Positions 3,858-18,341 of a DNA stretch of 64,000 nt are shown one piece after another (positions within the stretch are counted from its first letter, which is position 1; every line of letters begins with the position of its first letter). Below the pieces are notes generated by a model, which saw nothing but the letters and a program-made list of their open reading frames with translations, was not told the DNA's origin and did not search any database. This DNA comes from Shimia thalassica (GTDB lineage: Bacteria > Pseudomonadota > Alphaproteobacteria > Rhodobacterales > Rhodobacteraceae). The position numbers were made by a program, and so were the translations under genes. The stretch covers positions 62,001 through 126,000 of the forward strand of contig NZ_CYTW01000004.1 of the NCBI RefSeq assembly GCF_001458215.1. The letters are read 5' to 3'.

Positions 3858-4090
3858 GCCAACTCCCTCATTCGCGCCCTTACGCGAAAATACATCCAGA
3901 GGCCCCGTCTAAGCGCGAGACTTCCCTGCTCAAGAGAGTGAAGCACAAATGCCTATCTCCAAGCAAGCCGCTTGTCCTTTGCCAACCTACCAGCTTTGCG
4001 ACGTTTTCGCAGAAGTTTATCAGAAGGCTGTCAATGCTGTGCGATCTGGTCTAGGACCATCTCGCAACGTTTTTTTGACAGGAGCCAGCA

Positions 4091-4582
4091 ATGAGCCGCT
4101 TGGATGTCTTCATTAACAGAATGGTATCACAACGCGCCTGCTTGGACTTTGCGATTGAGCAGACCCGTGGCATGGCCGGACCCGTATTTGAACTGGGTTT
4201 GGGAAACGGCCGCACGTTTGATCACATGCGTGAACGGATGCCCGAGCGTGACGTTTATGTTTTTGAGCGCAAAGTCGAATCCAATCCGGCCTCTACGCCC
4301 GAACCTGAAATGACGATTCTGGGTGATGTGCGCGAAACGCTTCCACAATCCCTCGAACGATTTGGTCCAACGGCCCACCTGATCCACGCAGATCTCGGGG
4401 GGCACAACCTCGAGAAAAATGTGCAGTTCGCGCGCGAAATTTCGCCACTCATCGAACCGATGCTTGCAGTCGGTGGTATTTTCGTTTCAAGCGATCGTAT
4501 GTTTTTCACATCCCTGACAGAGCTGCCTTTGCCAGCAGATGCAATTGAAGGACGTTGCTTTATTTACAGGCGAGACGCTTAA
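4091..4582 (+). CDS. Class I SAM-dependent methyltransferase-like protein
   Basis: A 163-residue protein with a glycine-rich segment ELGLGNGRT at about residues 34-42 that matches motif I of class I S-adenosylmethionine methyltransferases. It is followed by an acidic strand end (VFERK, about 57-61) and a DLGGHN segment that could be motif IV-like. It resembles the short stand-alone methyltransferase family often seen in Rhodobacteraceae (I recall it as Methyltransf_17), which is shorter than typical methyltransferases. An AGGAG ribosome site lies just before the ATG. The substrate is unknown. It precedes the lipid operon by 134 bases on the same strand, but nothing visible ties it to that pathway. 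Confidence 0.65.
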   Translation: MSRLDVFINRMVSQRACLDFAIEQTRGMAGPVFELGLGNGRTFDHMRERMPERDVYVFERKVESNPASTPEPEMTILGDVRETLPQSLERFGPTAHLIHADLGGHNLEKNVQFAREISPLIEPMLAVGGIFVSSDRMFFTSLTELPLPADAIEGRCFIYRRDA

Positions 4583-4716
4583 GAATTCCACATTTTTCGC
4601 GATTTTGGGCGTAAAGTTGGTACAAATGATGTGATTGAAGAAGAGATGGGGCGTACTGCGACCCGTGCTTAGATGAAATAAAGGAATTTGGCACTTATCG
4701 CCAAACGAGGACATTG

Positions 4717-5943
4717 ATGACAAAGGCACCGTCCAGTTTTTCCAAATTTGCTGAACGCCATTTTCGCCTAAGCGGCAAAGCTTTGATCGAAAATGGTCAC
4801 CCTTATTTTGTTCCGACAGATGTGCTTGAAACCCAGTCCGACCAATGGCCCGATGGCTATTTGTCGATGTCGCATTACGACTATCTGGGCCTCATGCATC
4901 ATCCGCGCACGGTCGCGGCTGCAAAAGCCGCGCTTGATATGCACGGAACAGGTGTCGGGGCATCGCGTCTGGTTGGCGGCGAACGCCGCGCGCATCAACT
5001 ACTCGAAGCGGATTTGGCCGATTTCCTAGGTGTGGGCAGCACCCTGTCGATCATTTCCGGATACCTGACCAATGTGACCCTCATCGGCCACATTGCCGGA
5101 CAGCGCGACCTCGTGATCGTGGATGAGTTGGCCCATAATTCAATCATGATGGGATGTCGTGGCGGAAAATTCGGCTTTGAAACCTTTCCCCACAACGACC
5201 TTGAGGCGCTGGACAGGTTTCTGACCGATCACCGGTCGGACTATGCCCGCGTTCTGATTGTGACCGAAGGTCTGTTTTCGATGGACGGGGACATTACGGA
5301 TTTGCCCCGCCTTCTTGAGATCAAGGAAGCCCACGAAGCCTGGCTGATGCTGGACGAGGCGCATTCTTATGGCGTTCTTGGTGCCACCGGGCGCGGTCTT
5401 TGTGAACATTTTGGCGTTGATCCCAAACGGATCGAGCTGGCCGTGGGCACGCTTTCCAAAAGCTTTGCGAGTTCGGGTGGTTTTATCGCGGCAGACGCAG
5501 AAGTCATCGAATGGCTTCGATTTACGCTGCCCGGTTTCATTTTTTCCGTCGGACTGTCGCCCGCCACAACGGCAAGTGCCCATGCGGCGCTGGAAATTTT
5601 GAAGGAAGAGCCCGAACGCGTCACGCGTTTGCGGACGACCTCGCGGCAATTTCTAAGGCTGGCGAAAGAAGCCGGTCTGAATACAGGAGATGCACTCGGC
5701 GAAGCCGTTGTCCCCATCCTGTTTCCTACAGCTGACGAGTGTATCTATGTGTCCGAGACCCTGATGAGCCTCGGGATCTACGCCCCGCCGGTTGTGCATG
5801 TAGGTGTCCCCAAAGACCTGCCACGTATCCGGTTTTTCCTGTCACACACGCACTCGCAGCGAGACATCGAGCGTGTCATCCGTGAAATCTCGTATGCCGT
5901 CTTCTGCTTGAAAAAAAAAGACATGCGGCCAGTTGCCGAGTAA
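4717..5943 (+). CDS. spt: Alpha-oxoamine synthase, probable serine palmitoyltransferase
   Basis: A PLP enzyme of 408 residues that would join serine to an acyl-CoA or acyl-ACP, giving 3-ketodihydrosphingosine, the first step of sphingolipid synthesis. Family residues are in place: His140 in DELAHNSI stacks on PLP, Asp213 and His216 in DEAHSYG hold the ring, and Lys248 in TLSKSF forms the Schiff base. The Ser-Lys-Ser setting of the lysine is closer to serine palmitoyltransferases than to BioF or Kbl (usually GKA), and no bio or tdh gene is nearby. The start is taken as the ATG at 4717, with CGAGG 6 bases ahead; a TTG at 4714 is less likely. It is first in an operon with a KDSR-like reductase, which supports the assignment. 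AONS or aminoketone synthesis is the alternative. Confidence 0.72.
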   Translation: MTKAPSSFSKFAERHFRLSGKALIENGHPYFVPTDVLETQSDQWPDGYLSMSHYDYLGLMHHPRTVAAAKAALDMHGTGVGASRLVGGERRAHQLLEADLADFLGVGSTLSIISGYLTNVTLIGHIAGQRDLVIVDELAHNSIMMGCRGGKFGFETFPHNDLEALDRFLTDHRSDYARVLIVTEGLFSMDGDITDLPRLLEIKEAHEAWLMLDEAHSYGVLGATGRGLCEHFGVDPKRIELAVGTLSKSFASSGGFIAADAEVIEWLRFTLPGFIFSVGLSPATTASAHAALEILKEEPERVTRLRTTSRQFLRLAKEAGLNTGDALGEAVVPILFPTADECIYVSETLMSLGIYAPPVVHVGVPKDLPRIRFFLSHTHSQRDIERVIREISYAVFCLKKKDMRPVAE

Positions 5944-5945
5944 CA

Positions 5946-6563
5946 ATGTTTTTACCTCGCTTTGTCGCGATATTGTGTTTTTTGATGTGCCTGTACGCCC
6001 CAACGGTGCAGGCCGAGCCTCAGCTGACGCTCATTTCGTCAGAAACCACCCAAACCCTGCCCTCGGCGCAACCGGGCTGGCCAACACCAAGCGATCCCGG
6101 CATGGTGTTTTTCCTGCAACGCTCGATTAGCAAGAACGTTGTGGTTTATGCCGCCCAATTCGAAGACGACGGATCACTCAAGCGGCGCCCCATAGATGCA
6201 TTCTGGAGACGCTATAGCGACGACGGCACCGGCAGAGGACAGATCAAGGATTTGCGGTTTTTTGAATCCCGGCTGGCTTATGGCGTTTACACTTATCCCA
6301 CAGGGCGCGCCGGAGAATTTGACCTGCGCTTTGCCGCCCTTCCGGACCTGCCACTGACACTGCGGCAAGAGCGCCACAATCAGGCATCACTCTGGGCAAG
6401 ATTAGATGAAGAAGACTACAGGCTGGTTTACGGCTACGTCGAAATCGATCAAAAAGCGCTCATTCCACGCGTAGAACGCCTTCGGCTCTATACAATAGAC
6501 GTCAAAACGGGCAGTTACGTGACACATATTCTATCAGTTACGGGTGGGGCCATTCCCGAATGA
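5946..6563 (+). CDS. Secreted DUF4833-like protein
   Basis: A 205-residue exported protein. Residues 1-22 form a signal peptide (short basic start, hydrophobic core, cut near VQA-EP). The mature part contains a block beginning FFLQRSISKNVVVY, then PIDAFWRRY and a later LAYGVYTY. This pattern matches my recollection of the DUF4833 family, which has no assigned function. It starts 2 bases after the synthase stop and its own stop overlaps the inositol-phosphate synthase start (ATGA), so it is firmly inside the lipid operon. The position suggests a periplasmic role in handling or modifying the lipid, which is inference. No catalytic motif is evident. Confidence 0.6.
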   Translation: MFLPRFVAILCFLMCLYAPTVQAEPQLTLISSETTQTLPSAQPGWPTPSDPGMVFFLQRSISKNVVVYAAQFEDDGSLKRRPIDAFWRRYSDDGTGRGQIKDLRFFESRLAYGVYTYPTGRAGEFDLRFAALPDLPLTLRQERHNQASLWARLDEEDYRLVYGYVEIDQKALIPRVERLRLYTIDVKTGSYVTHILSVTGGAIPE

Positions 6564-7678
6564 ACGACACCAATAAATCAGGAATTCGCACCGCAATCGT
6601 GGGCGTCGGCAATTGCGCAAGTTCAATTATTCAGGGCGTTTCCTATTGCCGCGCCTTCGGTGAAGATGCCATCGGCGTGAGCTTTCCGGAACTGGGTGGG
6701 TACAAACCCGGTGACGTTGAACTGGTCGCCGGCTTTGAGGTTGATGCCCGTAAGGTTGGTAAAACTTTGGGCGAAGCCGCATTCGCAGCCCCGAACTGTA
6801 CCGAACGCTTTCACACTGATCTCGCGGATCAAACCGCAATGGTCTATCGCGGCCCCGATCTTGACGGTGTAGCCGCCCACATGCTGGCAAGCCCCGAAGA
6901 CCGCAGTTTTCGATTGTCTGAGGCCCCTGCCCTCAGCAAAGAAGAAGTTGTCGCCGTTTTGAAAGAAACCGGCGCCGAAGTCATGATGATTCTTCTGCCG
7001 GTCGGGTCACATCAGGCTGTTGCCTTCTACGCGGAATGCGCCATCGAAGCTGGATGTGCATTGGTAAACGGCATCCCCGTTTTTGTGGCGTCGCACCCTG
7101 TTTGGGCCGAGAAATTCAAGGCTGCCGGACTTCCTATTCTGGGCGATGATTTCAAGGCTCAGCTGGGCGCAACCATCGTTCACCGCGCATTGGCAAACCT
7201 TGCTGATATGCGTGGCGTTCAGATTGATCGCACCTATCAGTTGAACGTTGGTGGCAATACCGACTTTCTGAACATGTCCGACCACAGCCGCCTGACGCTC
7301 AAGCGTGAAAGCAAGACAGAAGCCGTGCAATCGGCCATGGACCAACGTCTTGAAAACGAAGATATCCGCATCGGGCCGTCCGATTACGTACCGTGGCTGA
7401 ACGACCGCAAGGTTGCCTATATTCGTCTCGAAGGACGCCTTTTCGGTGGCGCACGCACCAACATTGAACTGCGTTTGGATGTAGAAGACAGCCCAAATGC
7501 CGCCGCAGAAGCCCTTGCCGGTATCCGTCTTGCGCGTATCGCGCTGGATCGCGGTCTGTCCGGTTCGGTTGATGCTGCCAGCGCCTTCCTGTTCAAACAT
7601 CCACCGGTGCAACTCGAAGACACCAATGCGCATGACATGCTAATGGCTTTTGCGAACGGAGACGGGGAACAGGCCTGA
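6560..7678 (+). CDS. ino1: Inositol-3-phosphate synthase (actinobacterial/archaeal type)
   Basis: Converts glucose 6-phosphate to 1D-myo-inositol 3-phosphate using NAD. The 372-residue protein shows the NAD-binding GVGNCASS at 15-22, the LPVGS segment near 146-150, GDDFKAQLGATI around 195-206 and NVGGNTDF at 229-236, all hallmarks of the Ino1 family. Length and motif spacing fit the shorter actinobacterial and archaeal enzymes, not the longer yeast form. It overlaps the upstream gene by 4 bases and the next gene by 1 base (TGATG), so it is translationally coupled on both sides. Its place between sphingoid-base genes points to inositol-containing lipid rather than free inositol as the end product. 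Confidence 0.92.
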   Translation: MNDTNKSGIRTAIVGVGNCASSIIQGVSYCRAFGEDAIGVSFPELGGYKPGDVELVAGFEVDARKVGKTLGEAAFAAPNCTERFHTDLADQTAMVYRGPDLDGVAAHMLASPEDRSFRLSEAPALSKEEVVAVLKETGAEVMMILLPVGSHQAVAFYAECAIEAGCALVNGIPVFVASHPVWAEKFKAAGLPILGDDFKAQLGATIVHRALANLADMRGVQIDRTYQLNVGGNTDFLNMSDHSRLTLKRESKTEAVQSAMDQRLENEDIRIGPSDYVPWLNDRKVAYIRLEGRLFGGARTNIELRLDVEDSPNAAAEALAGIRLARIALDRGLSGSVDAASAFLFKHPPVQLEDTNAHDMLMAFANGDGEQA

Positions 7679-8472
7679 TGCGCCCTGCCTTTGTCACTGG
7701 CGGATCAAGCGGCATTGGCTTTGCCGTTGCGCGACAGTTGGCAGAAAAAGGTCACGACATAGCGCTTTTTGCGCGTGACCAGATGCGATTGAACGCGGCC
7801 AAAGCCTCTATCGTTGCGCGGTTCCCGCATATTCGGGTTGAAACCTTTGCCGTGGATGTCAGCGACCAATCCGCATTTGTCGCAGTACTCGAGCGGGCCC
7901 TTGCGGTGCTGGGAACGCCCGAATACGCGATCGCCAGCGCGGGTATCGCAGAGCCGGGTTTGTTCACGGAACAAGACATCGACCTGCATGAACGCCACAT
8001 GGCGATTAACTATTTTGGTAGTCTCTATTTCACCCGCACCTTGACCCAGCCCATGATAGAAGCAGGCGGCGGGCGGATCGGTTTGATCTCTTCGGGGGCC
8101 GCCTTTTTTGGCATTTACGGGTATGGGGCCTATGCCCCCTCAAAGTTCGCGCTGCGCGCCCTTGCAGAAGTGTTGCATCTTGAGCTCGAGCCGCACGGCA
8201 TCGTGACGACGCTGTGTTATCCACCCGATACAGACACTCCACAGCTCGAAACAGAAAAACGGACCAAGCCGGAAGCCACACAACAAATCACCGCAGGTGG
8301 CGGATTGTGGAAAGCGGATGACGTGTCGGCAACACTCTTGAAGGGGATGGAAAAAGGGCGCTTCATTGTCACCCCAGGGGTCCAAATGGGCGCCTTGAAC
8401 CGTCTGACAAGCCTCATCGCTCCGGCGCTGCGATGGCATCAGCGCCGTATCATCCGCAAGGTTGGGAAATGA
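7678..8472 (+). CDS. Short-chain dehydrogenase, probable 3-ketodihydrosphingosine reductase
   Basis: A classical SDR of 264 residues: cofactor loop TGGSSGIG at 7-14, Asn111, Ser138/139, and the catalytic pair Tyr152 and Lys156 (YAPSK). The stretch YPPDTDTP at 181-188 followed by KRTKPEA is a strong match to what I know of eukaryotic KDSR/Tsc10 and bacterial homologues, where a PPDTDTPG sequence is typical. It would reduce 3-ketodihydrosphingosine to dihydrosphingosine with NADPH, the second step of sphingolipid synthesis. It is coupled to ino1 (TGATG) and to the CdsA-like gene (ATGA). The C-terminal residues 235-264 are basic and hydrophobic and could sit on the membrane. A generic SDR with another ketone substrate is the alternative. 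Confidence 0.75.
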   Translation: MRPAFVTGGSSGIGFAVARQLAEKGHDIALFARDQMRLNAAKASIVARFPHIRVETFAVDVSDQSAFVAVLERALAVLGTPEYAIASAGIAEPGLFTEQDIDLHERHMAINYFGSLYFTRTLTQPMIEAGGGRIGLISSGAAFFGIYGYGAYAPSKFALRALAEVLHLELEPHGIVTTLCYPPDTDTPQLETEKRTKPEATQQITAGGGLWKADDVSATLLKGMEKGRFIVTPGVQMGALNRLTSLIAPALRWHQRRIIRKVGK

Positions 8473-9353
8473 TCGGCTTAACGGTTCCGCAAATATCACT
8501 GGCCGGTTTGCTCTTTCTTGCCGCTGGGTATGCGCTGGTCGGGTCAATTCGCCTTATCCCCGGCAAAGCCGCGCTCGCGCAGGATTTGTTTCAGGCCCTT
8601 TTGTCGATGACAATTGTCGCCGGTAGCTTGCTGGCGATTTTTTTGCTTGGGACTTGGGCGCTTGTTCCCGCGCTTTTGCTTCTTGCCGGTCGTGCCGGTT
8701 TCGAAGCGGCCCATGTGCGCCTTGGCCCGAACATGGCCGCTGCAGGTGGCGCTGTTGGTTTGGCCCTCTCATTGGCAACAATGTTGTGGCCGGTTCTGGC
8801 GCTGGTTTTCGCTGGCGGGTGGTGTTTGCTTCTTGCACGCTTTGTCATGGTGCCAGCGCCGCGCGATTCCAAACTGTGGAAATGGGTCGAACTGCTGTTG
8901 TTTCCACTGATTCCGGCGGCCATTCTGTCGTGGGCTGCTTTGAATCCCGACCTGAGACCCGCAATCCTGATCACCTATATCCTGATCGAAACCTTCGACA
9001 GCTATGCGCTTGTGGCGGGCAAGATGTTTGGAAAGACCAAGGCTTTCCCTGTTCTTAGCCCGCGCAAAACAATCGAAGGCCTGTTTGGCGGGGCTGTTTG
9101 TCTGGTTTTGACAGCCCTTGTCGCCGCCCTTGTTCTCGGCTTACCTGTGGCGGCATCTGTTGCGGCTGCATGCGTTATCGGGGCTTTTGCAATTGGTGGC
9201 GATCTTGCTGCATCACGACTTAAACGCGCTGCCGGGGTCAAAGACTATCCTGTTGTTCTTCCGAAACAGGGGGGCATACTGGATATCCTTGATTCATGGA
9301 TTGCGGCAGGCGCCGCCCTTGGGATGGCTCTTTTTCTCTTGGGCGGAGGATGA
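8469..9353 (+). CDS. CdsA-like phosphatidate cytidylyltransferase, divergent
   Basis: A polytopic membrane protein of 294 residues with about eight hydrophobic segments. Near the C-terminus, 249-276 follows the CdsA signature (SRLKR, VKD, then GG and D..LD). However, the normally conserved His of HGG is Gln267, and the Arg of the DR pair is Ile. An upstream SPRKTIEG block at 197-204 also matches the family. CdsA makes CDP-diacylglycerol from CTP and phosphatidate. The altered residues suggest a paralogue with a different lipid substrate or weaker activity. I chose ATG 8469, which overlaps the preceding stop as ATGA; a longer start at 8433 would run inside the SDR gene. It sits in the same operon as the sphingoid and inositol genes. 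Confidence 0.75.
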   Translation: MIGLTVPQISLAGLLFLAAGYALVGSIRLIPGKAALAQDLFQALLSMTIVAGSLLAIFLLGTWALVPALLLLAGRAGFEAAHVRLGPNMAAAGGAVGLALSLATMLWPVLALVFAGGWCLLLARFVMVPAPRDSKLWKWVELLLFPLIPAAILSWAALNPDLRPAILITYILIETFDSYALVAGKMFGKTKAFPVLSPRKTIEGLFGGAVCLVLTALVAALVLGLPVAASVAAACVIGAFAIGGDLAASRLKRAAGVKDYPVVLPKQGGILDILDSWIAAGAALGMALFLLGGG

Positions 9354-9392
9354 GCCCTTGCCAGAAAAGTTGCAGACGTCAACAATTCATCC

Positions 9393-10517
9393 ATGATCTT
9401 ACCCGGTCCAGTTTTTAAGATCCTTGGCAAACCGCTTGTCCGACGGCTGGCGCTGTTGTTGGCCATGGTTGTTGGCATCTTTCTGATTGAAAGCTTCACG
9501 ACCCTGATGGAGCGCGCTCTGCAATTTGGCGGCACCCCGTGGGATGTTGCCACGCTACTGGCGTATAAGGCACCAGAGATTGTCGATATTGCGCTGGCTC
9601 TGGGTCTGTTGATTGCCTTCTATTTTGCTTTGGCCGAGGCCCGCAACAAAGGCGAATTGATGATTCTGGCCACCGCTGGTGTGCACTGGGTGCGGGTGGT
9701 CGGCTTTGCGCTTGTCGTTGGTTTGGTTGGGGGCGCCGTTTCTTATACGGTTGCGGGATACATTGTGCCGCGAGCGCACTTTGCCGAACGTATCAAAATG
9801 GCAGAGTTGCGAACCGGTCATGTCCTGCAACAGATTTCCGAAACTGGCCCACGCAACGAAATCCTGAATATGGAGCAGGCCAGCTTTATCGCGACACCAC
9901 CGTCAAACACTGAAAGTGGTCTGGAACGGGGGCCTTTGTTCATCGTTCAAACCAACCCTGATCAGTCGTGGCGGGTGATCCAGTCTTATGATTGGACCAT
10001 TGTCAAAACCCCCTCGCCCGACGTTCCTGATGGCCGCAGGATCGAACTTCTTTCCCTGCGCGCATTTGATGGCCCGCCTCCGGAAGTGGCGGCAACATCA
10101 AACCTGAACGTCTTTAATACCACCTCTGCGGATCTGTCTTTCCGGTTGCAGGACATCGCGCCAGAGCCGGCACTGGTTGCAGCACTTGGTGAAAATGTAC
10201 TGCGGTTTACGCGCGAAGACGGCAGACGGATCGCCAGTATCGGGGCGCGTGCCCTTTTGGTGCCCGCAGCGGCCCTTTTGGCAATCGTTGCCGTTCTTGC
10301 CGGAGGAAGCGGGCGATCCCGTTTCTTTGTCCTGCCCGTCGCGATTGCACTGGTGATGACCTATGATGTTCTGGGCCGCACTCTTGTTCTGGATGGTGTC
10401 GACGCTTTTGCGCCGCATGTATTGGTTGTCATCGCTTTGTGCGCATACCTTGGCCCAGCGCTGTTGTTCATTGCATGGCGTGGCGAGGCAATCATGATAC
10501 CGTCGCGGGGCGGATAA
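9393..10517 (+). CDS. LptF/LptG-like permease, first of pair
   Basis: A 374-residue protein with the YjgP/YjgQ architecture: three N-terminal membrane helices (about residues 18-38, 50-75 and 98-130), a soluble periplasmic domain of about 150 residues, then three C-terminal helices (about 280-368). In the lipopolysaccharide exporter this fold forms the membrane half that lifts lipid to the periplasmic bridge together with the ATPase LptB. Canonical lptFG usually sit with pepA, lptD or surA; here the pair lies directly behind lipid-synthesis genes, 39 bases after the CdsA-like gene and 3 bases before its partner. A role in exporting the cluster's lipid is the natural inference. No LptB is encoded nearby, so it would share one. 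Confidence 0.82.
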   Translation: MILPGPVFKILGKPLVRRLALLLAMVVGIFLIESFTTLMERALQFGGTPWDVATLLAYKAPEIVDIALALGLLIAFYFALAEARNKGELMILATAGVHWVRVVGFALVVGLVGGAVSYTVAGYIVPRAHFAERIKMAELRTGHVLQQISETGPRNEILNMEQASFIATPPSNTESGLERGPLFIVQTNPDQSWRVIQSYDWTIVKTPSPDVPDGRRIELLSLRAFDGPPPEVAATSNLNVFNTTSADLSFRLQDIAPEPALVAALGENVLRFTREDGRRIASIGARALLVPAAALLAIVAVLAGGSGRSRFFVLPVAIALVMTYDVLGRTLVLDGVDAFAPHVLVVIALCAYLGPALLFIAWRGEAIMIPSRGG

Positions 10518-10520
10518 CGG

Positions 10521-11660
10521 ATGGGCATTCTGCGGAAACACACCGGCATTGCCGCAAGGCGCGTTTTTGCGACCTATCTTCTTGCGATCAGTTTCTCGAT
10601 GTTCGTTCTTTTGGTCATTGCACTGGCCATCGACCTTGCCGGCAACCTTGATGATGTCCGCGCGAAAGCCGACGATACAGGCGTTTCAACTTCGTCGTTA
10701 TTGCTGCCCTATATGGGATACAGAGCGGCCGATATCATCGCTCGTTTGCTGCCGATGGCCTGTCTGATCGGGGGCCTTATTGCCGAACTGCTGCGCCGGC
10801 AACGGCTTGAGGACGTGATCCTTGATGCTGCTGGCGCCTCTCCCTCTATCACATTGGGGGCGTTGCTTGCCGTCGGGCTGGTCACAGGGATCGCACAAAC
10901 AGCGTTGGAAGGCTCTATTCGGCCGCACGCCGTGGCCAATCAGGTGAAACTCGGGCTGGGAAGCTATGCCGAGCGTTTCAAATCGGGCGAAACGGCACCT
11001 GTGTGGTTTCTGGATGGCAACCGCGCCATGCAGGCCAAAGTGTACCGTGCGGATGCTCCGGAGCTGCGTGATGTCCGCCTGTATGAGGGACTCACAGAAA
11101 GCAGCCTGACAAGCATCACACACGCCACGCGTGCCATTCCGGTTGAAGGCAATCAGATGTGGCGGCTGGAGGGGATCGTCCGGTGGCAAATCAAAGACGG
11201 TTATCCACAATCACCAGAGCGCCTTGCGCAGATGGATATCGCTTTTCCGCTAACCTCGGCACATGTTCAATATCACGGCGTCCTTGGGTTTTATCTCCCC
11301 TATGAACGGTTGCAGGAATTGTCTTCTATCGCAGCCTCGCATCGCAGTCCTGATGCAGAAACCGCCATTGTCCGTCGCTATGCCGCGTTTTTCCTGCCCG
11401 GGATTTTTGCTCTGTTGGGGGCAAGCCTGGCACGGGTAAGCCAACGCGGAAGGGTGCTTGCGCCGTTTCGCCTGTTGATGCTGGGCACCATGGGGTATTT
11501 GTCATTGGTGTCGGTAAAGGTGTTCTGGGCGCTTGGCGAATTTGGCGAGGTCGGGCCAATCGCAACAAGCGTGATCCCTCTCACCATTGCGCTTGGGGTG
11601 TCTATCCTGCTTCAACTCATCGCCAGCGGCTATGTCGTGTTGCGACGCTCCGAGGCATAA
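10521..11660 (+). CDS. LptF/LptG-like permease, second of pair
   Basis: A 379-residue YjgP/YjgQ-family protein with three membrane helices at the N-terminus (about 15-40, 62-85 and 108-130), a periplasmic domain, and three helices at about 295-315, 322-345 and 352-372. The cytoplasmic link RRQRLEDVILDAAGAS around residues 91-106 corresponds to the coupling region that touches the ATPase in this family. It begins 3 bases after its partner ends and closes the operon. Its last 31 bases overlap the end of the convergent nucleotidyltransferase gene. It would form a heterodimer with the preceding protein as a lipid extraction channel. Confidence 0.82.
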   Translation: MGILRKHTGIAARRVFATYLLAISFSMFVLLVIALAIDLAGNLDDVRAKADDTGVSTSSLLLPYMGYRAADIIARLLPMACLIGGLIAELLRRQRLEDVILDAAGASPSITLGALLAVGLVTGIAQTALEGSIRPHAVANQVKLGLGSYAERFKSGETAPVWFLDGNRAMQAKVYRADAPELRDVRLYEGLTESSLTSITHATRAIPVEGNQMWRLEGIVRWQIKDGYPQSPERLAQMDIAFPLTSAHVQYHGVLGFYLPYERLQELSSIAASHRSPDAETAIVRRYAAFFLPGIFALLGASLARVSQRGRVLAPFRLLMLGTMGYLSLVSVKVFWALGEFGEVGPIATSVIPLTIALGVSILLQLIASGYVVLRRSEA

Positions 11661-12403
11661 AGCGTGTCGTTTTCACAGATGCGCGGCCACACGTGGGATA
11701 TGGCGTTGTGATACATCTGCTCGTCATCCACTTCGGACCATGCCAAATCTTCGATCAAGTGACAGTCGATATCAACGCGGGCCCCAGTTTTCACGACGAC
11801 AATTTCATAGTCAGACGTCGGATGCGCTGCCAAATGTGCGGCACCGACGTCTTGTAACACACTTCTGTTGGCCGCTGAAAAACAGGTGATTCCCACCAGT
11901 TCCCCAAGGTGTTGTTCGGGTTGTGCCGAGATGTCTTTGTTCATTGTTTTTAAGACTGCCTGCCCCTGCAGACCTTCCCGCGACCAAATGAAGACTTCAT
12001 CCGTGGCCCGCGTTTCACCAGACATCAAAATGCGTGTCACACCCGACGTGATGGGCGCAAGGGCCCGCCGTTCAAAGATGATATCGGACTCGAGAAGAAC
12101 CACATCCCCGTCCAAACCTTCAAGCCCCATCATCAAAGACAACAGGCTGCCGGTCTCACCATATTGCGCATTGTGAACAAGGGTCACGCCGGCATGGTTC
12201 TGAAAAAGGTCTTGGTATTGGTCCGCAAGGTGTCCGGTCACAATCCGAACGTTGCGGACCCCCTGTTCCTGCAACAACCGGACCGATCGCTGAACAAGGG
12301 GTTCGCCCCCAACCTCAAGCAGACCTTTGGGCGTCATTTCCCCCCGTTTGCCCATGCGCATGCCGCGCCCGGCGGCAAGTATAAGTGCAGTCGCTTCAGG
12401 CAT
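11630..12403 (-). CDS. Sugar-phosphate/alcohol-phosphate nucleotidyltransferase
   Basis: A 257-residue NTP transferase. The N-terminus has LAAGRGMRMG at 9-18 followed by PKGLLEVGG at 25-33, the nucleotide-binding loop and catalytic lysine of the family. ESD at 105-107 is the likely metal site. The overall look is that of CTP-using enzymes such as LicC (phosphocholine) and archaeal inositol-1-phosphate cytidylyltransferase. Beside inositol-phosphate synthase, an FGGY kinase and a CDP-alcohol phosphotransferase, it may form a CDP-inositol or CDP-polyol headgroup donor. I start it at ATG 12403; the longer TTG start at 12430 has no better ribosome site. It is convergent with the permease operon and divergent from the glycosyltransferase. 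Confidence 0.75.
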   Translation of the reverse strand: MPEATALILAAGRGMRMGKRGEMTPKGLLEVGGEPLVQRSVRLLQEQGVRNVRIVTGHLADQYQDLFQNHAGVTLVHNAQYGETGSLLSLMMGLEGLDGDVVLLESDIIFERRALAPITSGVTRILMSGETRATDEVFIWSREGLQGQAVLKTMNKDISAQPEQHLGELVGITCFSAANRSVLQDVGAAHLAAHPTSDYEIVVVKTGARVDIDCHLIEDLAWSEVDDEQMYHNAISHVWPRICENDTLYASERRNTT

Positions 12404-12520
12404 TTTGTCCGCCGCCCCAAATATTTCCAAAAATCTGACACGCCTATGCTAGGAGGTTTTTGACCACAAGAAAACGGCCGGAATACCCCATATGCCCCAC
12501 AGCCAGCGGATAGCGTCCAG

Positions 12521-13621
12521 ATGAAAATCGTAATGGTGTGCCCCTATGCCATGGGACGCCCCGGAGGCGTGCAAACGCATGTCCGGGATATGGCGGGCTG
12601 GCTTCGCTCGCAAGGGCACGGCGTGCGTATTGTGGCACCGGATGATGGAAGTGAAGAAGAGGGGCTTTATCCGTTGGGTGGGTTTCGGAAAATCACCCTT
12701 CACGGCACCAGCTTTGAAATTGCCCGCGCCAACAGAAAAGCCGTTCAAACCTGTGCGCGTGATCTCAGGGAATGGGGTGCAGATGTCGTCCACCTGCACA
12801 CCCCGTGGACGCCGATGATGGCATGGCAAATCTGGAAAGCGCTGAAACTGCCGACAGTCGCGACGTTTCACGCCACACTGCCAGAAAGTACCGGCTTTGA
12901 CCCGATGACGGCCTTTTTGAACCGCGCCGCCCGATATTTTTCAAAACGTCTGGATCACATCGTTGTCCCGTCTCGGGCACCTCAGGCGCAATGGGAACGC
13001 TTGGGGCTTCCTGCCCCCACAATCATTTCTCCAACCATAGACCTTTCCAAGTGGCGCGCCGCATGTGGCACCCCGACCGATCGTCTGAAAATCGTCTATC
13101 TGGGTCGACTGGAAGAGCGCAAAGGCCTGAATGTCCTGCTGGATGCATGGCAGGATATCGCTGCAATGCTGCCCCGTGCAGAACTGACCATCGCTGGCAG
13201 TGGCGAACTGCAAAACGCCATTGAAACGCAGATCTCAAGCCTTGGGCTGCAACGTATACGTCTGATACCTGCGCCTGACGATGCCACGGCAAAATCACTG
13301 GTCGGAGAGTCGGATCTGTTTCTTGCACCCGCGCTTGAGGGGGAAAGTTTCGGGCTGGTTCTGATCGAAGCCATGGCCGCGGGCACCTTGCCCATTGCGG
13401 CCTCGAATGCAGGGTTCAGAACAGTCATGACCGGGGCGGGCCAAAGCTTGCTGGTTGCGCCGGGTGATGCTCTTGCGCTGGCCGAAAGAGTGATCGAAGT
13501 GGCGTCGAACCCTGCCGAACGCGCCGCACTACAGGCTTGGGCCAGCAAACGCGCGTTCGAATTCGACGTTGCCTCGGTTGGGCCAGACTATGTTGCGCTT
13601 TATCAATCAGCTCTGGCATGA
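12521..13621 (+). CDS. GT4 glycosyltransferase, PimA-like
   Basis: A GT-B fold retaining glycosyltransferase of 366 residues. The N-terminal MVCPYA..RPGGVQTHV (5-21) closely recalls phosphatidylinositol mannosyltransferase PimA, where CPYS..PGGVQ is conserved. The C-terminal half has LGRLEERKG (194-202) and the E-x7-E pair Glu275/Glu283 in EGESFGLVLIEAMAAG, which binds the nucleotide sugar. It would add a sugar to a lipid acceptor on the cytoplasmic face; given the inositol genes beside it, an inositol lipid is a reasonable guess. It starts a second plus-strand run that includes the kinase and the phosphotransferase. The donor sugar is not predictable from sequence alone. Confidence 0.8.
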   Translation: MKIVMVCPYAMGRPGGVQTHVRDMAGWLRSQGHGVRIVAPDDGSEEEGLYPLGGFRKITLHGTSFEIARANRKAVQTCARDLREWGADVVHLHTPWTPMMAWQIWKALKLPTVATFHATLPESTGFDPMTAFLNRAARYFSKRLDHIVVPSRAPQAQWERLGLPAPTIISPTIDLSKWRAACGTPTDRLKIVYLGRLEERKGLNVLLDAWQDIAAMLPRAELTIAGSGELQNAIETQISSLGLQRIRLIPAPDDATAKSLVGESDLFLAPALEGESFGLVLIEAMAAGTLPIAASNAGFRTVMTGAGQSLLVAPGDALALAERVIEVASNPAERAALQAWASKRAFEFDVASVGPDYVALYQSALA

Positions 13622-13667
13622 GGTGATTTGTCATATCCGTTCTGCGGTTGCATAATCCCCGCCATTC

Positions 13668-15263
13668 ATGCCAGCTAACGACATCTCAGCCGAACGGCGA
13701 CATGAAGCCCCAATAGGGAAAGTGATTGTGACTGAACGCGATCTTGTTATTTCAGCGGATTTTGGAACTTCCGGTGTCAAGATCGGTATCGTGGACCATT
13801 CTTTAAAGCTTATCTCGCGGGCCACTGCGACATACCCCCTGTCTCTGGCCAAGGGTGGCATCGCAGAGCAAGCACCTGATGACTGGTGGGCGGCGCTTGC
13901 GCGGGGCTTGTCCGACCTGCGTCACGAAATTCCGAACCTGATGGAGCGCACCGGCGCATTGGTCATGAGCACGCAGCTGTGCGGCGTGATTTGCGCGGAC
14001 GAGACCGGTCATGCCCTGCGCCCCTGCCTGACATGGCTGGACAAGCGGGCCGCCCCCATAGGTCGTGCCCTGACTGGCGGATTTCCAGAGGTGCATGGAT
14101 ATCAGATTTTCAAACTCGCACGATGGTTGCGTATCGCAAACGGCGCACCTGCCAAAAACGGTATGGACCCGACCGCCAAATTTCTTTGGATCGCACAAAA
14201 CGAACCCGAGATTTATGCCCGCACGCGCTGGTTCCTTGATGTGAAAGACTGGCTGGTGCATCGCGCAACCGGCCGTTTCACCACAAGCGCCGAAAGCGCC
14301 AATCTGAGCTGGCTGATGGATACCCGTCCCGGGCGCGAGGGATGGTCCCAGACATTGGCCAACGTAGTGGGCATACCGCTCGAAAAAATGCCCGAGATTG
14401 TCGACGCCGCCGAGATTGTCGGCACTCTTACACCCCAAGCCGCCGCAGAACTTGGGTTGCGCGCAGATGTTCCGGTTCTGGGCGGCGCATCGGATGTCAC
14501 TGCAGCCGCTTTGGGATCGGGGGAAGTGTCCGATGGCGCCTTGCACATCAGCGCCGCAACCAGCGCCTGGATCGCGGGGTTCATGCCCTCTCGATTGCTC
14601 AGCGTTGCGCATTCCTATGCCACCATCACCAGTGCCTTGAACTATCGCCCGCTTTTGATCGCCTCGCAGGAAAATGCGGGATCTGCATTGGAATGGGGCG
14701 TGCGTATCAGTGGCGGTCGGGTCGACGGCGAAGCTCTGGCCCATGCTTTTGCCGATATGGGGCCACCCGAAATAGACGATCCCTATTTTTTGCCTTGGCT
14801 TGCCGGGGAACGTGTCCCAGTCGACAATGATGCGTTGCGCGGTGTGTTTCATGGGCTGGCCCTGCACCACGATGATCGCGCCATTCGACGCGCAACGCTT
14901 GAAGGCGTGGCCCTGAACCTGCGCTGGTCTTATTCTAAGGTCTGCAAAGAAAAGCCCGTCAAAACCGATGGACCGATTGGAATGGTGGGGGGCGTGTCTG
15001 CTAACCCTGCCTTTGCCCAGACCATCGCGGATGCATTGAACCGCGAGGTGCGTGTTGGCGGATCACGGCATGCGGGCGTACTGGGCGCTGCAACTCTGGC
15101 CGCACCGGTGATGGGGTGGGCCGAAACCCCCTGGAAAGCCGCCGAGGTTTTGCGCGCCAATACAAATGCACATTATGTTCCGAACCCTGCCCGGGTCGCA
15201 GATCTTGACCGCCGTGCAACACATCTGGCCAAAATCCGAAAACACATCCTGCGCAGTTATTAG
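13668..15263 (+). CDS. FGGY-family carbohydrate/polyol kinase
   Basis: A 531-residue ATP-dependent kinase of the FGGY family (xylulokinase, glycerol kinase, ribulokinase). The phosphate-binding strand DFGTSGVKIG at 31-40 and the C-terminal GMVGGVSANPAFAQ segment are characteristic. TWLDKRA near residue 122 is part of the sugar site. Substrates of this family are short sugars or polyols. Between a GT4 enzyme and a CDP-alcohol phosphotransferase, it may prepare a polyol phosphate headgroup, though sugar catabolism cannot be excluded. The ATG at 13668 gives a 20-residue extension not needed by the fold; the GTG at 13728 (codon 21) is an equally good start. It ends 17 bases before the next gene. 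Confidence 0.82.
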   Translation: MPANDISAERRHEAPIGKVIVTERDLVISADFGTSGVKIGIVDHSLKLISRATATYPLSLAKGGIAEQAPDDWWAALARGLSDLRHEIPNLMERTGALVMSTQLCGVICADETGHALRPCLTWLDKRAAPIGRALTGGFPEVHGYQIFKLARWLRIANGAPAKNGMDPTAKFLWIAQNEPEIYARTRWFLDVKDWLVHRATGRFTTSAESANLSWLMDTRPGREGWSQTLANVVGIPLEKMPEIVDAAEIVGTLTPQAAAELGLRADVPVLGGASDVTAAALGSGEVSDGALHISAATSAWIAGFMPSRLLSVAHSYATITSALNYRPLLIASQENAGSALEWGVRISGGRVDGEALAHAFADMGPPEIDDPYFLPWLAGERVPVDNDALRGVFHGLALHHDDRAIRRATLEGVALNLRWSYSKVCKEKPVKTDGPIGMVGGVSANPAFAQTIADALNREVRVGGSRHAGVLGAATLAAPVMGWAETPWKAAEVLRANTNAHYVPNPARVADLDRRATHLAKIRKHILRSY

Positions 15264-15280
15264 ACCAAGGAAGACCTCTG

Positions 15281-15892
15281 ATGATCGACGGACTTATCAA
15301 ATCCAAGATTGATCCCATTTGGGAGAGCCTGTCGACGCCGCTTGTTCGTGCAGGCTGGACCCCGAACCAGGTCACGTTTACCGGTCTGGTCCTGATTATC
15401 GCAACCTCGCTGGCCTATCTGTGGCACGGAAGCGAGTTGATTTACGGGCTGACTTTGGCGGTTGCTTTTGCCTTTGATGCATTGGATGGCGCAGTGGCCC
15501 GCCGTCGCGATATGTGCAGCAAGGCAGGTGGTTATTTCGACGCAATGGTAGATCGCTATCAAGAGCTTGCCGTTCTGGCGACGCTGGCCTTTGTGCACGA
15601 TTTGTGGGCTTTGGCGCTGGCCGCCTTTTCAGGAAGCGTTCTGACCAGCTATGCCAAGGCCCGCACCGCTATTGAGATCGAGATCAGCAATGATGACTGG
15701 CCCGACTTCTTCGAACGGCTTGAACGGATCATATTCATTTGCGTGTTTCTGGTTCTTGCAGGCATTTTTGACGCCGGATGGATCGTCACTGCGGGCCTCG
15801 CCATATTTGCACTGCTTTCGCACTTCACGGCACTTCAGCGCGCGTGGCGGGCGACCCAGATGCTCAAATCGGACGATCAGGCGCGTCGGTAA
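15281..15892 (+). CDS. CDP-alcohol phosphatidyltransferase, PIP-synthase-like
   Basis: A 203-residue membrane enzyme with a complete catalytic motif: Asp66, Asp69-Gly70, Ala73-Arg74, Gly83, Asp87 and Asp91 with exact family spacing. The preceding WTPNQVTFTG segment resembles archaetidylinositol-phosphate and phosphatidylinositol-phosphate synthases. Enzymes of this class either move a lipid phosphate from CDP-diacylglycerol to inositol phosphate, or an alcohol phosphate from a CDP-alcohol to a lipid hydroxyl. Both substrates could be made by neighbours (CdsA-like enzyme, Ino1, nucleotidyltransferase), so the direction is open. An AGGAAG ribosome site precedes the ATG. Its last 16 bases overlap the convergent membrane-protein gene. 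Confidence 0.88.
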   Translation: MIDGLIKSKIDPIWESLSTPLVRAGWTPNQVTFTGLVLIIATSLAYLWHGSELIYGLTLAVAFAFDALDGAVARRRDMCSKAGGYFDAMVDRYQELAVLATLAFVHDLWALALAAFSGSVLTSYAKARTAIEIEISNDDWPDFFERLERIIFICVFLVLAGIFDAGWIVTAGLAIFALLSHFTALQRAWRATQMLKSDDQARR

Positions 15893-16635
15893 CGCAGGAT
15901 CGCCCCCCACATATCTGCATGAAAAATCAGATTGTAGAGCAAGAATGACGAGATCAACAAAGGCTCGGTGATGACATACGTCTGAAACACGGCTGCTTGA
16001 AACGCGCCAAGATCATAGTTCTTGATCAAAAACAGCACCAGATACGCAACGCCCAGAAAAATAGGCACCCACACGTATTTGCGGCGCACCCGCATCATCG
16101 AAGGCAGAATAACGGAATTGCGCTCGGGCTGTTTTGCAAACCTGCGGGCAGTGATCTCGACAAACACCACCACAAAGGCTTGGGAAAAGAAAAACAGATA
16201 GCTGCCGAACATGTGTTCGTCGTTGTAGTCGGGAAAGCGGTAATTGCTCAGGATAACCATCCCGACACATGCCATGAGTTGCAAGGTGGCCGACCACAGG
16301 GACAACACCGTCAGCCAGCGACGTTCTTTTGGGGGGATCTGGTCAGAGCGCATGCCCTCGGCCCAAAGCGCCGCAATCATGCTGCCCACTCCAAAAAACA
16401 GAAATACGGCAGAAATTGAAATCCACACCGCAAAAGGATTGCCAATCGCGGGGTCACGGATCGCGCCACTAATCGTAGGTGGTTTCGCGGCCGTCAGCTC
16501 AGGATACGCTGCAATATAAAGAATGCGCGCCTGATAGATCTGAAAGTTCACAACGATAATAACAAAGCCCGTCAAAACAATCGCTGCAAACAGCACCATC
16601 ACGGATCTACGGGTAGGAATGGAAACAGAAGACAT
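15877..16635 (-). CDS. Polytopic membrane protein, possibly Frag1/DRAM/Sfk1-like
   Basis: A 252-residue integral membrane protein with about six hydrophobic helices (roughly 13-31, 71-92, 109-129, 144-162, 191-209 and 218-240). Between helices 1 and 2 lies a long non-cytoplasmic loop ending in ISGAIRDPAIGNPF. The layout and a loop followed by a helix beginning WISISAVFLF recall Frag1/DRAM/Sfk1 proteins, which in eukaryotes are linked to phosphoinositide and lysosomal lipid biology. The resemblance is weak and from memory. It starts 2 bases after the stop of the ABC exporter gene, so they share an operon. Its 3' end overlaps the CDP-alcohol phosphotransferase gene. Function unknown. Confidence 0.6.
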   Translation of the reverse strand: MSSVSIPTRRSVMVLFAAIVLTGFVIIVVNFQIYQARILYIAAYPELTAAKPPTISGAIRDPAIGNPFAVWISISAVFLFFGVGSMIAALWAEGMRSDQIPPKERRWLTVLSLWSATLQLMACVGMVILSNYRFPDYNDEHMFGSYLFFFSQAFVVVFVEITARRFAKQPERNSVILPSMMRVRRKYVWVPIFLGVAYLVLFLIKNYDLGAFQAAVFQTYVITEPLLISSFLLYNLIFHADMWGAILRYRRA

Positions 16636-16637
16636 AG

Positions 16638-18341
16638 TTAAACAACTCTTTCGCTGTCAGAAGACATGCGTTGATCCGAAACAATATGGCCATTTTCCAT
16701 TTTGATCAGGCGATCACATTTTCCGAACTGGTGATCATCATGTGTCACGGCAATAACCAATTGTCCCGTTGCAGCCAATTCCGGGATCAACACATCGTAA
16801 AAATATGTTCGGTTTTCAGGGTCTTGGTCAGCGGCAAACTCATCCAGAATAATCACCGGCCGGTTTTCGGCAAGCGCGACAGACAGGGCAAGACGGCGCT
16901 TTTGACCAGCGGATAAGGACAGAGTGGAAAATCTCCCTTCTGCCAATGTGACACGGTTGGACAGCTTTAAATCCACTATCCGCTGTTCCAGAACGTCTTC
17001 TTCAGCAGACGTCATCCCGAAGGTGCGATCAAACAGGTGGAATTCGCTAAAGACGCCGCAAAACAATTCGCGATAGATCGCTTTGGAGTGGTCGTCCAAT
17101 GGCTGCCCATCCAAGAGAATTTCACCTTGGTCGGGATTGCGCATCCCCGTGATCAGGCTCAGCAATGTTGTTTTGCCCGATCCATTGCCCCCGCAAATGA
17201 AAACCGTTTCCCCGGGTTTAAAGCCAAGATTGATTGGCCCGAGTTCAAAGACCTCACCACCCGCAGCCGTTTTGTCCCCGACCCGTGCCACAACATTTCG
17301 CAGCTCGATTTCCTTGAAGCCTTGTTGGTGCTCAACATCTTGCGACAGCGCCGGAGATTGCGATGTGGCAAGGTCTGCCTCGACCTGTCGCAGCCTGTAA
17401 TAAGCATTCTCGGCCTGTGAAATTTTGGGCAGCGCCGCAAACAAAAGTTCGATCGGTCCGCTCGTTAAAAAGATCACTGTCAGAACCTGAAACATTGTTG
17501 CTGTGCCGCCCGACTGAAGGGACGGCAAACCAATGACCATGAAACACAACAACAGTATGACCGATGCTTCGCCAATGCCGGTGCTCGCCGAAAAGCGCCG
17601 CTCGGCGCGCATTGTGTCTGCGCTAATCCTGTGGATTGTGTTGACTGTTTCTTGTTCGATCGCTTCGCGCCGTGACGAACGCAGGCGCACCTCTTTCCAA
17701 CCTGACAGCATATCGCTGACACGATCACAATAAACCGTGTAGGCCTCGGATGCCTTGCGCAGGAAACGTCGTGCGGGCGGGTCAAACAAAACCCAGCCGA
17801 TGCTGCCAAAGACAACAGCCAGCACTGTCGCAAATCCGGCGATGGGCGATATCCAGAACAGATAGGGAATTGCGATTCCAACAACGATCACCGCTTCGAT
17901 GGCCTGAATCAGATTGATGATAGACCCGGATAGTTTTTCAACTTCGCTCGTCATGGCGGCATAGACCTTGCCATGTGACCGCGACAGCAGGAAATCGATG
18001 TTGGCATGCAAAAGGCGCTGACTTGCCGTTGTGCGCATCTGTTCGTTTATACGCACGATCAACGTATGCGCGCGTATCCGAACAAAGAACCCCGCAATCA
18101 GCAAAGCACCTGCCGACACCAGCAAGATCAGAATTGTCTGCGCGCCAATTCCATCTTCCACCTGACTTGCAGCCCGGTTGATGGCAAAGATCATGCCCGC
18201 GCGGCTCAGGCTGGCCATTAACGTCAGCCAAATCACCGGATCGCGCAGCACGCCACTTGTTACCAGAAGGTAATGCAAAACCTCGAGCCGGCGGCTCGAC
18301 CCTTTTTCTGCATCTGTCTGGGTGGGGGGCGTCTGGGTCAC
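16638..18341 (-). CDS. ABC exporter half-transporter, SyrD/PvdE (cyclic peptide export) type
   Basis: A 567-residue fusion of a six-helix membrane domain (about residues 30-305) and an ATPase domain. The ATPase has Walker A GGNGSGKT at 384-391, signature LSAGQ at 476-480 and Walker B VIILDE ending at Glu501. LSAGQ in place of LSGGQ and a DEFAADQDP segment after Walker B are typical of the SyrD/PvdE/YojI branch, which exports siderophore precursors, cyclic lipopeptides or microcin. It would act as a homodimer in the inner membrane. The start is GTG at 18341. Its operon partner is the small membrane protein, and the location beside lipid genes suggests an amphipathic cargo; this is inference. 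Confidence 0.85.
   Translation of the reverse strand: MTQTPPTQTDAEKGSSRRLEVLHYLLVTSGVLRDPVIWLTLMASLSRAGMIFAINRAASQVEDGIGAQTILILLVSAGALLIAGFFVRIRAHTLIVRINEQMRTTASQRLLHANIDFLLSRSHGKVYAAMTSEVEKLSGSIINLIQAIEAVIVVGIAIPYLFWISPIAGFATVLAVVFGSIGWVLFDPPARRFLRKASEAYTVYCDRVSDMLSGWKEVRLRSSRREAIEQETVNTIHRISADTMRAERRFSASTGIGEASVILLLCFMVIGLPSLQSGGTATMFQVLTVIFLTSGPIELLFAALPKISQAENAYYRLRQVEADLATSQSPALSQDVEHQQGFKEIELRNVVARVGDKTAAGGEVFELGPINLGFKPGETVFICGGNGSGKTTLLSLITGMRNPDQGEILLDGQPLDDHSKAIYRELFCGVFSEFHLFDRTFGMTSAEEDVLEQRIVDLKLSNRVTLAEGRFSTLSLSAGQKRRLALSVALAENRPVIILDEFAADQDPENRTYFYDVLIPELAATGQLVIAVTHDDHQFGKCDRLIKMENGHIVSDQRMSSDSERVV

Follow-up and report, generated by a model that had tools for sequence, protein, structure and literature searches.

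A gene cluster of Shimia thalassica that may direct synthesis and export of a glycosylated inositol-phosphate lipid, probably on a sphingoid base

In the alphaproteobacterium Caulobacter crescentus, the region CC_1168-CC_1152 carries spt, acpR, aasR, cerR, cerS and a ceramide kinase gene, and its phosphosphingolipid product has a phosphoglycerate head group (PMC11324152; this and the other papers are cited for parts of their text). The region also contains a CDP-alcohol transferase gene, a CdsA-like gene that is required for the product, and second copies of LptC, LptF and LptG, for which transport of the lipid to the outer membrane was proposed but left untested there; the word 'inositol' is absent from the main text of that paper (PMC11324152). 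In Bacteroides thetaiotaomicron, BT_1522-BT_1526 includes genes for MIPS and a phosphatidylinositol phosphate (PIP) synthase, and the product is an inositol sphingolipid. The serine palmitoyltransferase (SPT) gene there, BT_0870, is not part of the cluster; phosphorylinositol is put on ceramide by an AUR1-like enzyme (PMC9246714). According to the same source, inositol lipids are relatively rare in bacteria (PMC9246714). We analyzed a 64,000-nucleotide stretch (the window; G000:C4:62001-126000) of the 4.35-Mb genome of Shimia thalassica by reading its open reading frames and scanning the window proteins against Pfam and NCBIfam. Here we describe a cluster in it that joins candidate sphingoid-base genes to genes for an inositol-phosphate head group and for putative lipid export.

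The Shimia cluster is a variation on known sphingolipid and inositol-lipid loci, not a new type. It shares with the Caulobacter region sphingoid-type genes, a CdsA-like gene, a second LptF/LptG pair and a CDP-alcohol transferase. It differs in having an alpha-oxoamine synthase (AOS) of another lineage, a TSC10-like short-chain dehydrogenase/reductase (SDR), inositol-3-phosphate synthase (INO1), a PIP-synthase-type CDP-alcohol phosphotransferase (PIPS), a PimA-like glycosyltransferase of family 4 (GT4), a DUF4833 protein and a Frag1-like protein. In contrast to the B. thetaiotaomicron arrangement, AOS and SDR lie inside the unit, together with the PimA-like glycosyltransferase, CdsA and LptFG; no AUR1-like family was found among the Pfam matches of the cluster genes (the genome was not searched for AUR1). 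The INO1, PIPS and PimA types of the mycobacterial pathway to phosphatidylinositol (PI) and PIM1 are all present, with the checked residues conserved. The mycobacterial pathway, however, is not known to include AOS and SDR or LptFG, and its anchor is diacylglycerol. Yeast makes mannosyl-inositol-phosphoceramide (MIPC), the kind of end product proposed here, and also has a Frag1-family membrane protein, but its head-group enzymes are of another origin. A limited search of the open-licence literature, covering part of it, brought up no description of this locus.

Gene families, conserved residues, gene order, co-occurrence and second gene copies were read directly from the DNA. Based on these results, a lipid with a glycosylated inositol head group appears well supported as the product encoded by the locus, and we consider an inositol glycolipid with dedicated export very probable. 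To the fuller reading, in which the locus directs both synthesis and export of a glycosylated inositol-phosphate lipid anchored most likely by a sphingoid base, we give about an even chance.

The head-group enzymes closely resemble characterized ones at the residues that were checked. The motif D-x2-D-G-x2-A-R...G-x3-D-x3-D was present in 16/16 orthologues of PIPS (15281..15892, plus strand; PF01066), as were the equivalents of the inositol-phosphate-binding residues S132, K135, R155 and R195 of MtPIPS. For this check the L005 row, which is a second CDP-alcohol transferase, was dropped, and L067-L070 were outside the set. The two arginines among them are described as invariant in PIP synthases, which does not hold for the PI synthases of eukaryotes (PMC4634129). 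PIPS reached none of the curated cut-offs (87.3 of 170 for PIPSynth, 74.7 of 350 for the BT1523 type and 126.1 of 180 for archaetidylinositol-phosphate synthase). The three other PF01066 matches in the genome (E<=0.001) were, by eye, PgsA, PssA (beside psd) and a Pcs-like protein. The GT4 protein (12521..13621, plus strand), a candidate mannosyltransferase, aligned with PimA over residues 1-363; its top solved relatives were two PimA sequences (E 2.7e-45 and 3.1e-45), followed by the next family at 6.5e-11. Five PimA residues (Y, H, R, K and E), whose role we take as given, were kept in 22/22 orthologues. INO1 (6560..7678, plus strand; PF01658, 119 bits) had a single NCBIfam match, the mycothiol INO1 model, at 381 bits versus a cut-off of 638. 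These comparisons bear out the sequence-only reading, an earlier annotation of this DNA, which had called the GT4 PimA-like, had named PIP synthase and PimA as proteins to compare with, and had inferred a glycosylated inositol-phosphate sphingolipid or a related inositol glycerolipid; it is the glycosylated inositol head group that they support.

We found that gene order around the AOS is conserved. Searching genome contigs with the AOS (4717..5943, plus strand; PF00155, 135 bits; start taken as the ATG at 4717, where the reading-frame list gives TTG at 4714) yielded 23 loci. Seventeen, at 69-74% identity, were in Shimia, Salinihabitans and other Rhodobacteraceae, and six elsewhere were at 32-37%. 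Named carriers were the marine species Shimia marina, S. haliotis and Salinihabitans flavidus. The order AOS-DUF4833-INO1-SDR-CdsA-LptF-LptG was kept in 17/17 close loci, indicating that the clustering is not due to chance. GT4 and the FGGY carbohydrate/polyol kinase followed in 16/17 (the exception is L003), and PIPS was seen in 14/17. Among the remaining loci, L003 carries PIPS on another contig; L011 stops short of PIPS, which is visible in L066, taken from its length as the same contig (L063 and L064 were likewise treated as the same contigs as L003 and L016); and L005 ends before the expected place. In the window, the intergenic gaps from AOS to LptG range from -40 to +39 bases, making a single transcription unit plausible. 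GT4, FGGY (13668..15263, plus strand; PF00370, 142 bits, and PF02782, 86 bits; best PDB match xylulose kinase) and PIPS form a second tight run with gaps of 46 and 17 bases, on which the minus-strand Frag1 and ABC exporter genes converge. Promoter-like sites occurred at chance (6 versus 7.5 in shuffles) and terminator-like sites slightly above it (27 versus 17.7, standard deviation 3.7); both were left unused.

The association also held across genomes. The sample comprised 394 genomes of the family, nearly one per genus, and presence was scored at E<=1e-80 for AOS, E<=1e-20 for PIPS and E<=1e-40 for INO1. AOS was present in 27/394: 12 close (at least 61% identity, own genome included, one of them broken between two contigs), and another 15 at 40-49%. 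PIPS was found in 14/394 and INO1 in 15/394. All 12 close-AOS genomes had both INO1 and PIPS, versus 3 (INO1) and 2 (PIPS) of the other 382 (Fisher p ~2e-20 and ~4e-21, respectively, with kinship between genomes ignored). In three genomes (G152, G282 and G126) the genes were scattered over separate loci with the main ones still present, indicating that the link is more than neighbourhood. The co-occurrence across Rhodobacteraceae that had been put forward as a check on the cluster was thus observed.

Several of the genes may serve export. Five cluster genes, those for DUF4833, the LptF-like, LptG-like and Frag1-like proteins and the ABC exporter, were absent from the earlier description; the genes that it did name all lie where it had placed them, with LSKS at the pyridoxal-phosphate lysine of the AOS and YPPDTDTP in the SDR. 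CdsA (8433..9353, plus strand; PF01148, 110 bits; start codon uncertain, with a 40-base overlap with the SDR), LptF (9393..10517, plus strand; PF03739, 52 bits) and LptG (10521..11660, plus strand; PF03739, 108 bits) are second genome copies. A CdsA with a better score, close to a gene that is RseP-like by eye, lies at G000:C2:417348. A better-scoring LptF/LptG pair lies at G000:C1:2025736-2027918, and we rejected the cluster pair as the housekeeping one on that ground. DUF4833 (5946..6563, plus strand; PF16117, 82 bits; signal peptide by eye) is a putative periplasmic partner of the exporter. PF16117 was matched by 18/18 aligned members (17 of 23 orthologues plus the window). The AlphaFold model was confident (pLDDT 91.7) and matched no PDB fold at E<=0.001, leaving an LptC-like identity unsupported.

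The Frag1/DRAM/Sfk1 (PGAP2-like) membrane protein (15877..16635, minus strand; PF10277, 36.3 bits, cut-off 30.3) is a putative lipid remodeller. PF10277 was matched by 13/15 aligned members at E<=0.01 (14 of 15 orthologues plus the window; L007 is cut off). The protein had no solved relative by fold, and its PDB sequence matches were chance only. PF10277 presumably holds PGAP2 and CWH43-N. The N-terminal part of CWH43 corresponds to PGAP2, and CWH43 is needed for the change of yeast glycosylphosphatidylinositol (GPI) lipids from diacylglycerol to ceramide (PMC7125958). By analogy, a role of the Frag1-like protein in lipid remodelling is worth testing. The adjacent ABC exporter gene (16638..18341, minus strand), a putative flippase, was found beside Frag1 in L065, L155, L156 and L159 as well.

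The AOS had been read as SPT-like, with the proviso that it should not group with BioF or Kbl. Its PDB matches included Sphingobacterium SPT (206 bits), BioF (192), Kbl (186) and cysteate acyltransferase (138). It scored below every curated NCBIfam cut-off, including those for SPT (SPT-CFB, 278 of 640 bits; others, 262 of 500 and 196.7 of 670) and for glycine C-acetyltransferase (267.5 of 460 bits). In a 65-row tree, the tier-1 AOS (18 rows) grouped at 100/100, apart from 21 SPT rows, and the window AOS together with the 40-49% group (tier 2) formed a clade of their own (100/100; stem 1.04). A 99/86 branch gathered the BioF, Kbl, HemA and KAPA rows on one side, without the window AOS. Rows came from 17 tier-1 loci and the window, with the near-copies L006, L008, L010, L012, L015, L017 and L018 left out; from 14/15 tier-2 genomes (G162 left out); and from 20/48 SPT genomes. 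By this tree the AOS is a third lineage beside the SPT and BioF/Kbl groups, and BioF/Kbl may be its sister group. The separation from BioF and Kbl therefore stood and the placement with SPT did not. We rejected BioF for biotin synthesis as an identity for the AOS: in the tree it falls away from the BioF/Kbl/HemA side, its score is below the cut-off and its gene sits in a lipid locus (no search for other biotin genes of the genome was made). The other AOS paralogues of the genome were, by eye, HemA-like and Kbl-like, the latter grouping with E. coli Kbl.

The SDR (7678..8472, plus strand) is a candidate 3-ketosphinganine reductase (TSC10/KDSR-like). The best of its 532 solved matches was TSC10 (8jat; E 1.8e-22), with 83.3 bits versus 75.3 for the next. 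Catalytic S139, Y152 and K156 were present in 24/24 orthologues, Pro198 in 24/24 and Lys197 in 23/24. The earlier call had leaned on YPPDTDTP, which we take to be a KDSR signature; the solved TSC10 chain itself differs at that site. The reductase assignment gained from the TSC10 match and the catalytic residues.

A fatty-acid desaturase gene (PF00487, 86 bits) lies beside a Stealth phosphotransferase gene at G000:C2:363.4-365.5 kb (L095:4445-6549). In L067, L068 and L069 relatives of this pair form part of the cluster, and in L157 and L160 they adjoin FGGY-PIPS. This linkage is better evidence than the match of the desaturase to PF08557 (sphingolipid desaturase); against the PDB the desaturase gave one chance match. 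Overall, the claim of a sphingoid base gained indirectly from the TSC10-like SDR and from the desaturase linked to the cluster in relatives, and lost from an AOS that belongs to neither the SPT nor the BioF/Kbl group and passes no curated cut-off. We think a sphingoid product more probable than not; for a sphingoid anchor joined to the inositol lipid we put the chance at about even.

Canonical SPT was surveyed in a class-wide sample of 385 genomes, at least five of them from the window's family, its own included. The alphaproteobacterial SPT model matched 48/385 at E<=1e-100, none of the 48 in that family. A GNAT-like protein in 11/20 SPT loci may be a ceramide synthase (PF00583, 19.2 bits, below cut-off), and 8 of the 11 candidate rows made up a ceramide-synthase query, A1. 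The absence of ceramide synthase and acyl carrier protein from the locus, remarked on earlier, agrees with the families detected in its genes. One locus, L135, in a 7.4-Mb genome of another family (G744), carries in reverse orientation a canonical alphaproteobacterial SPT (~9268-10281) and an INO1 (52%; ~3316-4398), with a short nucleotidyltransferase match ~5 kb away, and is possibly an independent inositol-sphingolipid locus. In the Shimia genome, G000:C5:16.4-17.9 kb (L148:14395-15873) holds a fatty acyl-AMP-ligase-like gene (by eye), a possible acyl supplier.

Several observations weigh against a sphingoid inositol lipid with dedicated export. The best NCBIfam score of the AOS was to bioF (319.6 of 426), the AOS is outside the SPT clade of the 65-row tree, and in a midpoint drawing, whose root is arbitrary and which has no outgroup, its clade shares one side of a 97/83 branch with BioF/Kbl/HemA. 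PPDTDTP was kept in 16/24 SDR orthologues. The desaturase fell below the PF08557 cut-off of 23 (16.8 bits as protein, 20.4 in the genome scan), sub-cut-off PF08557 matches occurred in 6/14 control genomes, and the L068 desaturase had no PF08557 match. Query A1 found no match in the Shimia genome, an empty answer that shows little, and no lipid kinase or PIP phosphatase was recognised in the cluster (no ceramide-kinase query was made). Among the 25 best models for the ABC exporter, only 'cyclic peptide export ABC transporter' was passed (288.8 of 286.2; MsbA, 108 of 602), and its role as a lipid flippase is therefore a guess from position. According to a taxonomy paper of 2020, Sphingomonadales are apparently the only Alphaproteobacteria with sphingolipids; the same paper notes that absences are rarely reported (PMC7179689). 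Finally, locus L155 of genome G246 has the order DUF4833-INO1-CdsA-LptF-LptG-GT4-FGGY-PIPS-Frag1-ABC with no AOS or SDR between, and there was no AOS in G246 at E<=1e-80; genome G095 has the same module (L156) with AOS (41%) and SDR (45%) on another contig. These two genomes indicate that the inositol module can stand without adjacent sphingoid genes; Frag1 stays in both loci. The G095 AOS-SDR pair is in L084 at ~7721-9678 on the minus strand, and FabF-like, dehydratase-like and PlsC-like genes (by eye) lie near the L156 module.

Our results might also indicate that the inositol lipid is a glycerolipid, a diacylglycerol PI-mannoside like that of mycobacteria, and that AOS and SDR lead to a different sphingoid or aminolipid, with only the exporter in common. 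PimA uses diacylglycerol lipids in mycobacteria, and the missing ceramide-synthase candidate, the missing lipid kinase and the G246 module all fit this alternative. Mycobacterial PIPS uses CDP-diacylglycerol (PMC4634129). In contrast, AOS and SDR lie inside the INO1-CdsA-LptFG unit in 17/17 loci, and 12/14 PIPS genomes carry this AOS (13/14 with the 41% AOS of G095). We regard a glycerolipid as the leading alternative, possible and less probable than a sphingoid anchor.

Alternatively, the AOS might take another amino acid (alanine, glycine or cysteate) or a chain bound to acyl carrier protein, giving, in place of a genuine sphinganine, an aminoketone lipid such as a deoxy- or sulfono-sphingoid. 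Its long-stemmed clade, joined with the 40-49% group, is consistent with this, as is cysteate acyltransferase among its PDB matches. Tier-2 reading frames were read at L076, L080 and L084, and 2/3 of these loci have the AOS beside polyketide-synthase-like genes (by eye). Against a different substrate, the best solved match was Sphingobacterium SPT, with a small margin over BioF. We consider such a substrate unlikely. In L076 and L080 themselves the polyketide-synthase-like genes are long and a divergent SDR is adjacent; these loci possibly yield polyketide-derived sphingoid-like products in Rhodobacteraceae.

A PntC-like cytidylyltransferase gene (NT; 11630..12430, minus strand) is an accessory of the cluster, present in 3/17 close loci (L005, L007 and L011). 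Its PDB matches included PntC (6pd1; E 2.6e-30), a CTP:phosphocholine enzyme (8e-14) and a CTP:inositol-1-phosphate enzyme (0.0022). In Tde-PntC, two glutamates contact 2-aminoethylphosphonate (AEP) (PMC6697681), and both, Glu104 and Glu196, were kept in 7/7 NT rows (L007 and L158 were not among them). NT thus looks like an AEP cytidylyltransferase, which had not been foreseen. Relatives have AEP genes beside the AOS: in L003 the genes upstream of it encode a PepM-PntC fusion, a protein that is decarboxylase-like by eye, and PhnW, with the NCBIfam models for PEP mutase (377.9 of 319.55) and PhnW (431.3 of 400.8) passed, and in L071 a PhnW-like gene (59%) adjoins it. A second CDP-alcohol transferase lies beside NT in L005, L011, L067-L070 and L158. 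The system resembles known PntC phosphonate tailoring in its cytidylyltransferase with both AEP-contacting glutamates and in the PepM and PhnW of a relative (PMC6697681), but the Shimia gene is attached to a lipid-export locus in a genome with no recognisable PepM. That genome had two PF13714 matches and neither qualifies. The strong one, at C5:10011, is by eye isocitrate-lyase-like and lacks EDK...NS, presumably the PepM motif; the other is below cut-off at 24.4 bits. Production of AEP by the Shimia genome itself is therefore unsupported, and its PF01066 matches include no partner transferase of the L005/L011/L067-L070 kind. The window NT may be a remnant, or its substrate may be AEP taken up from outside or some other compound. 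It is very unlikely that NT makes CDP-inositol, as has been proposed for the alternative Prevotella/B. vulgatus inositol-lipid cluster (NTP transferase, CDP-alcohol transferase and HAD), even with an NTP transferase beside MIPS in Bacteroidetes (PMC9246714) and a partner transferase beside NT in relatives: PntC and not the inositol-1-phosphate enzyme is its closest solved relative, the AEP contacts and AEP genes are those described above, and NT is absent from 14/17 loci that keep INO1.

Other genes of the window appear less closely connected. A small Methyltransf_17 methyltransferase gene (4091..4582, plus strand; PF12692, 218 bits) adjoins the AOS in 4/17 close loci and is probably peripheral. 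Our guess is that the FGGY kinase serves inositol salvage. Upstream, at 194-3857, are peptide/nickel-type ABC importer genes (SBP_bac_5 and a double ATPase), found in 16/17 loci (L003 differs). At 19552-21105, an MTTB-family methyltransferase (PF06253, 720.9 bits) scored 274 of 525 with the curated trimethylamine model, below cut-off, and perhaps acts on another methylamine or betaine.

From these genes we infer the reactions and their order, as well as the sphingoid anchor, which sugar is added and where the lipid goes, as follows. INO1 would convert glucose-6-phosphate to inositol-3-phosphate. The AOS would condense an amino acid, assumed to be serine, with a fatty acyl thioester. Reduction of the 3-keto group would fall to the TSC10-like SDR. 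The second CdsA would turn a lipid phosphate into a CDP-lipid, which PIPS would join to inositol phosphate; a phosphatase, none being recognised in the cluster, would strip the extra phosphate. The PimA-like GT4 would then add a hexose, probably mannose. Once flipped by the ABC exporter, the lipid would reach the outer membrane through the second LptF/LptG pair and DUF4833. In relatives, the PntC-type enzyme and the second CDP-alcohol transferase would add AEP. The chances seem to us equally divided for and against a product that is, by analogy, a bacterial counterpart of yeast MIPC made with mycobacterial-type head-group enzymes.

A broader account would have roseobacter-type bacteria building the MIPC pathway independently, PIPS and PimA doing the work of the yeast enzymes, Frag1 swapping diacylglycerol for a ceramide-type anchor on the inositol glycolipid much as CWH43 does for yeast GPI, LptFG2-DUF4833 placing the lipid in the outer membrane, and AEP as an option. 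Taken whole, we think this improbable. A conserved locus of marine bacteria in which a second Lpt pair accompanies inositol, mannosyl and sphingoid chemistry would itself be a bacterial analogue, open to testing, of a lipid of fungal membranes. It would also suggest roles for DUF4833 and for bacterial Frag1 proteins, and would offer a second system for learning how LptFG paralogues move lipids other than lipopolysaccharide.

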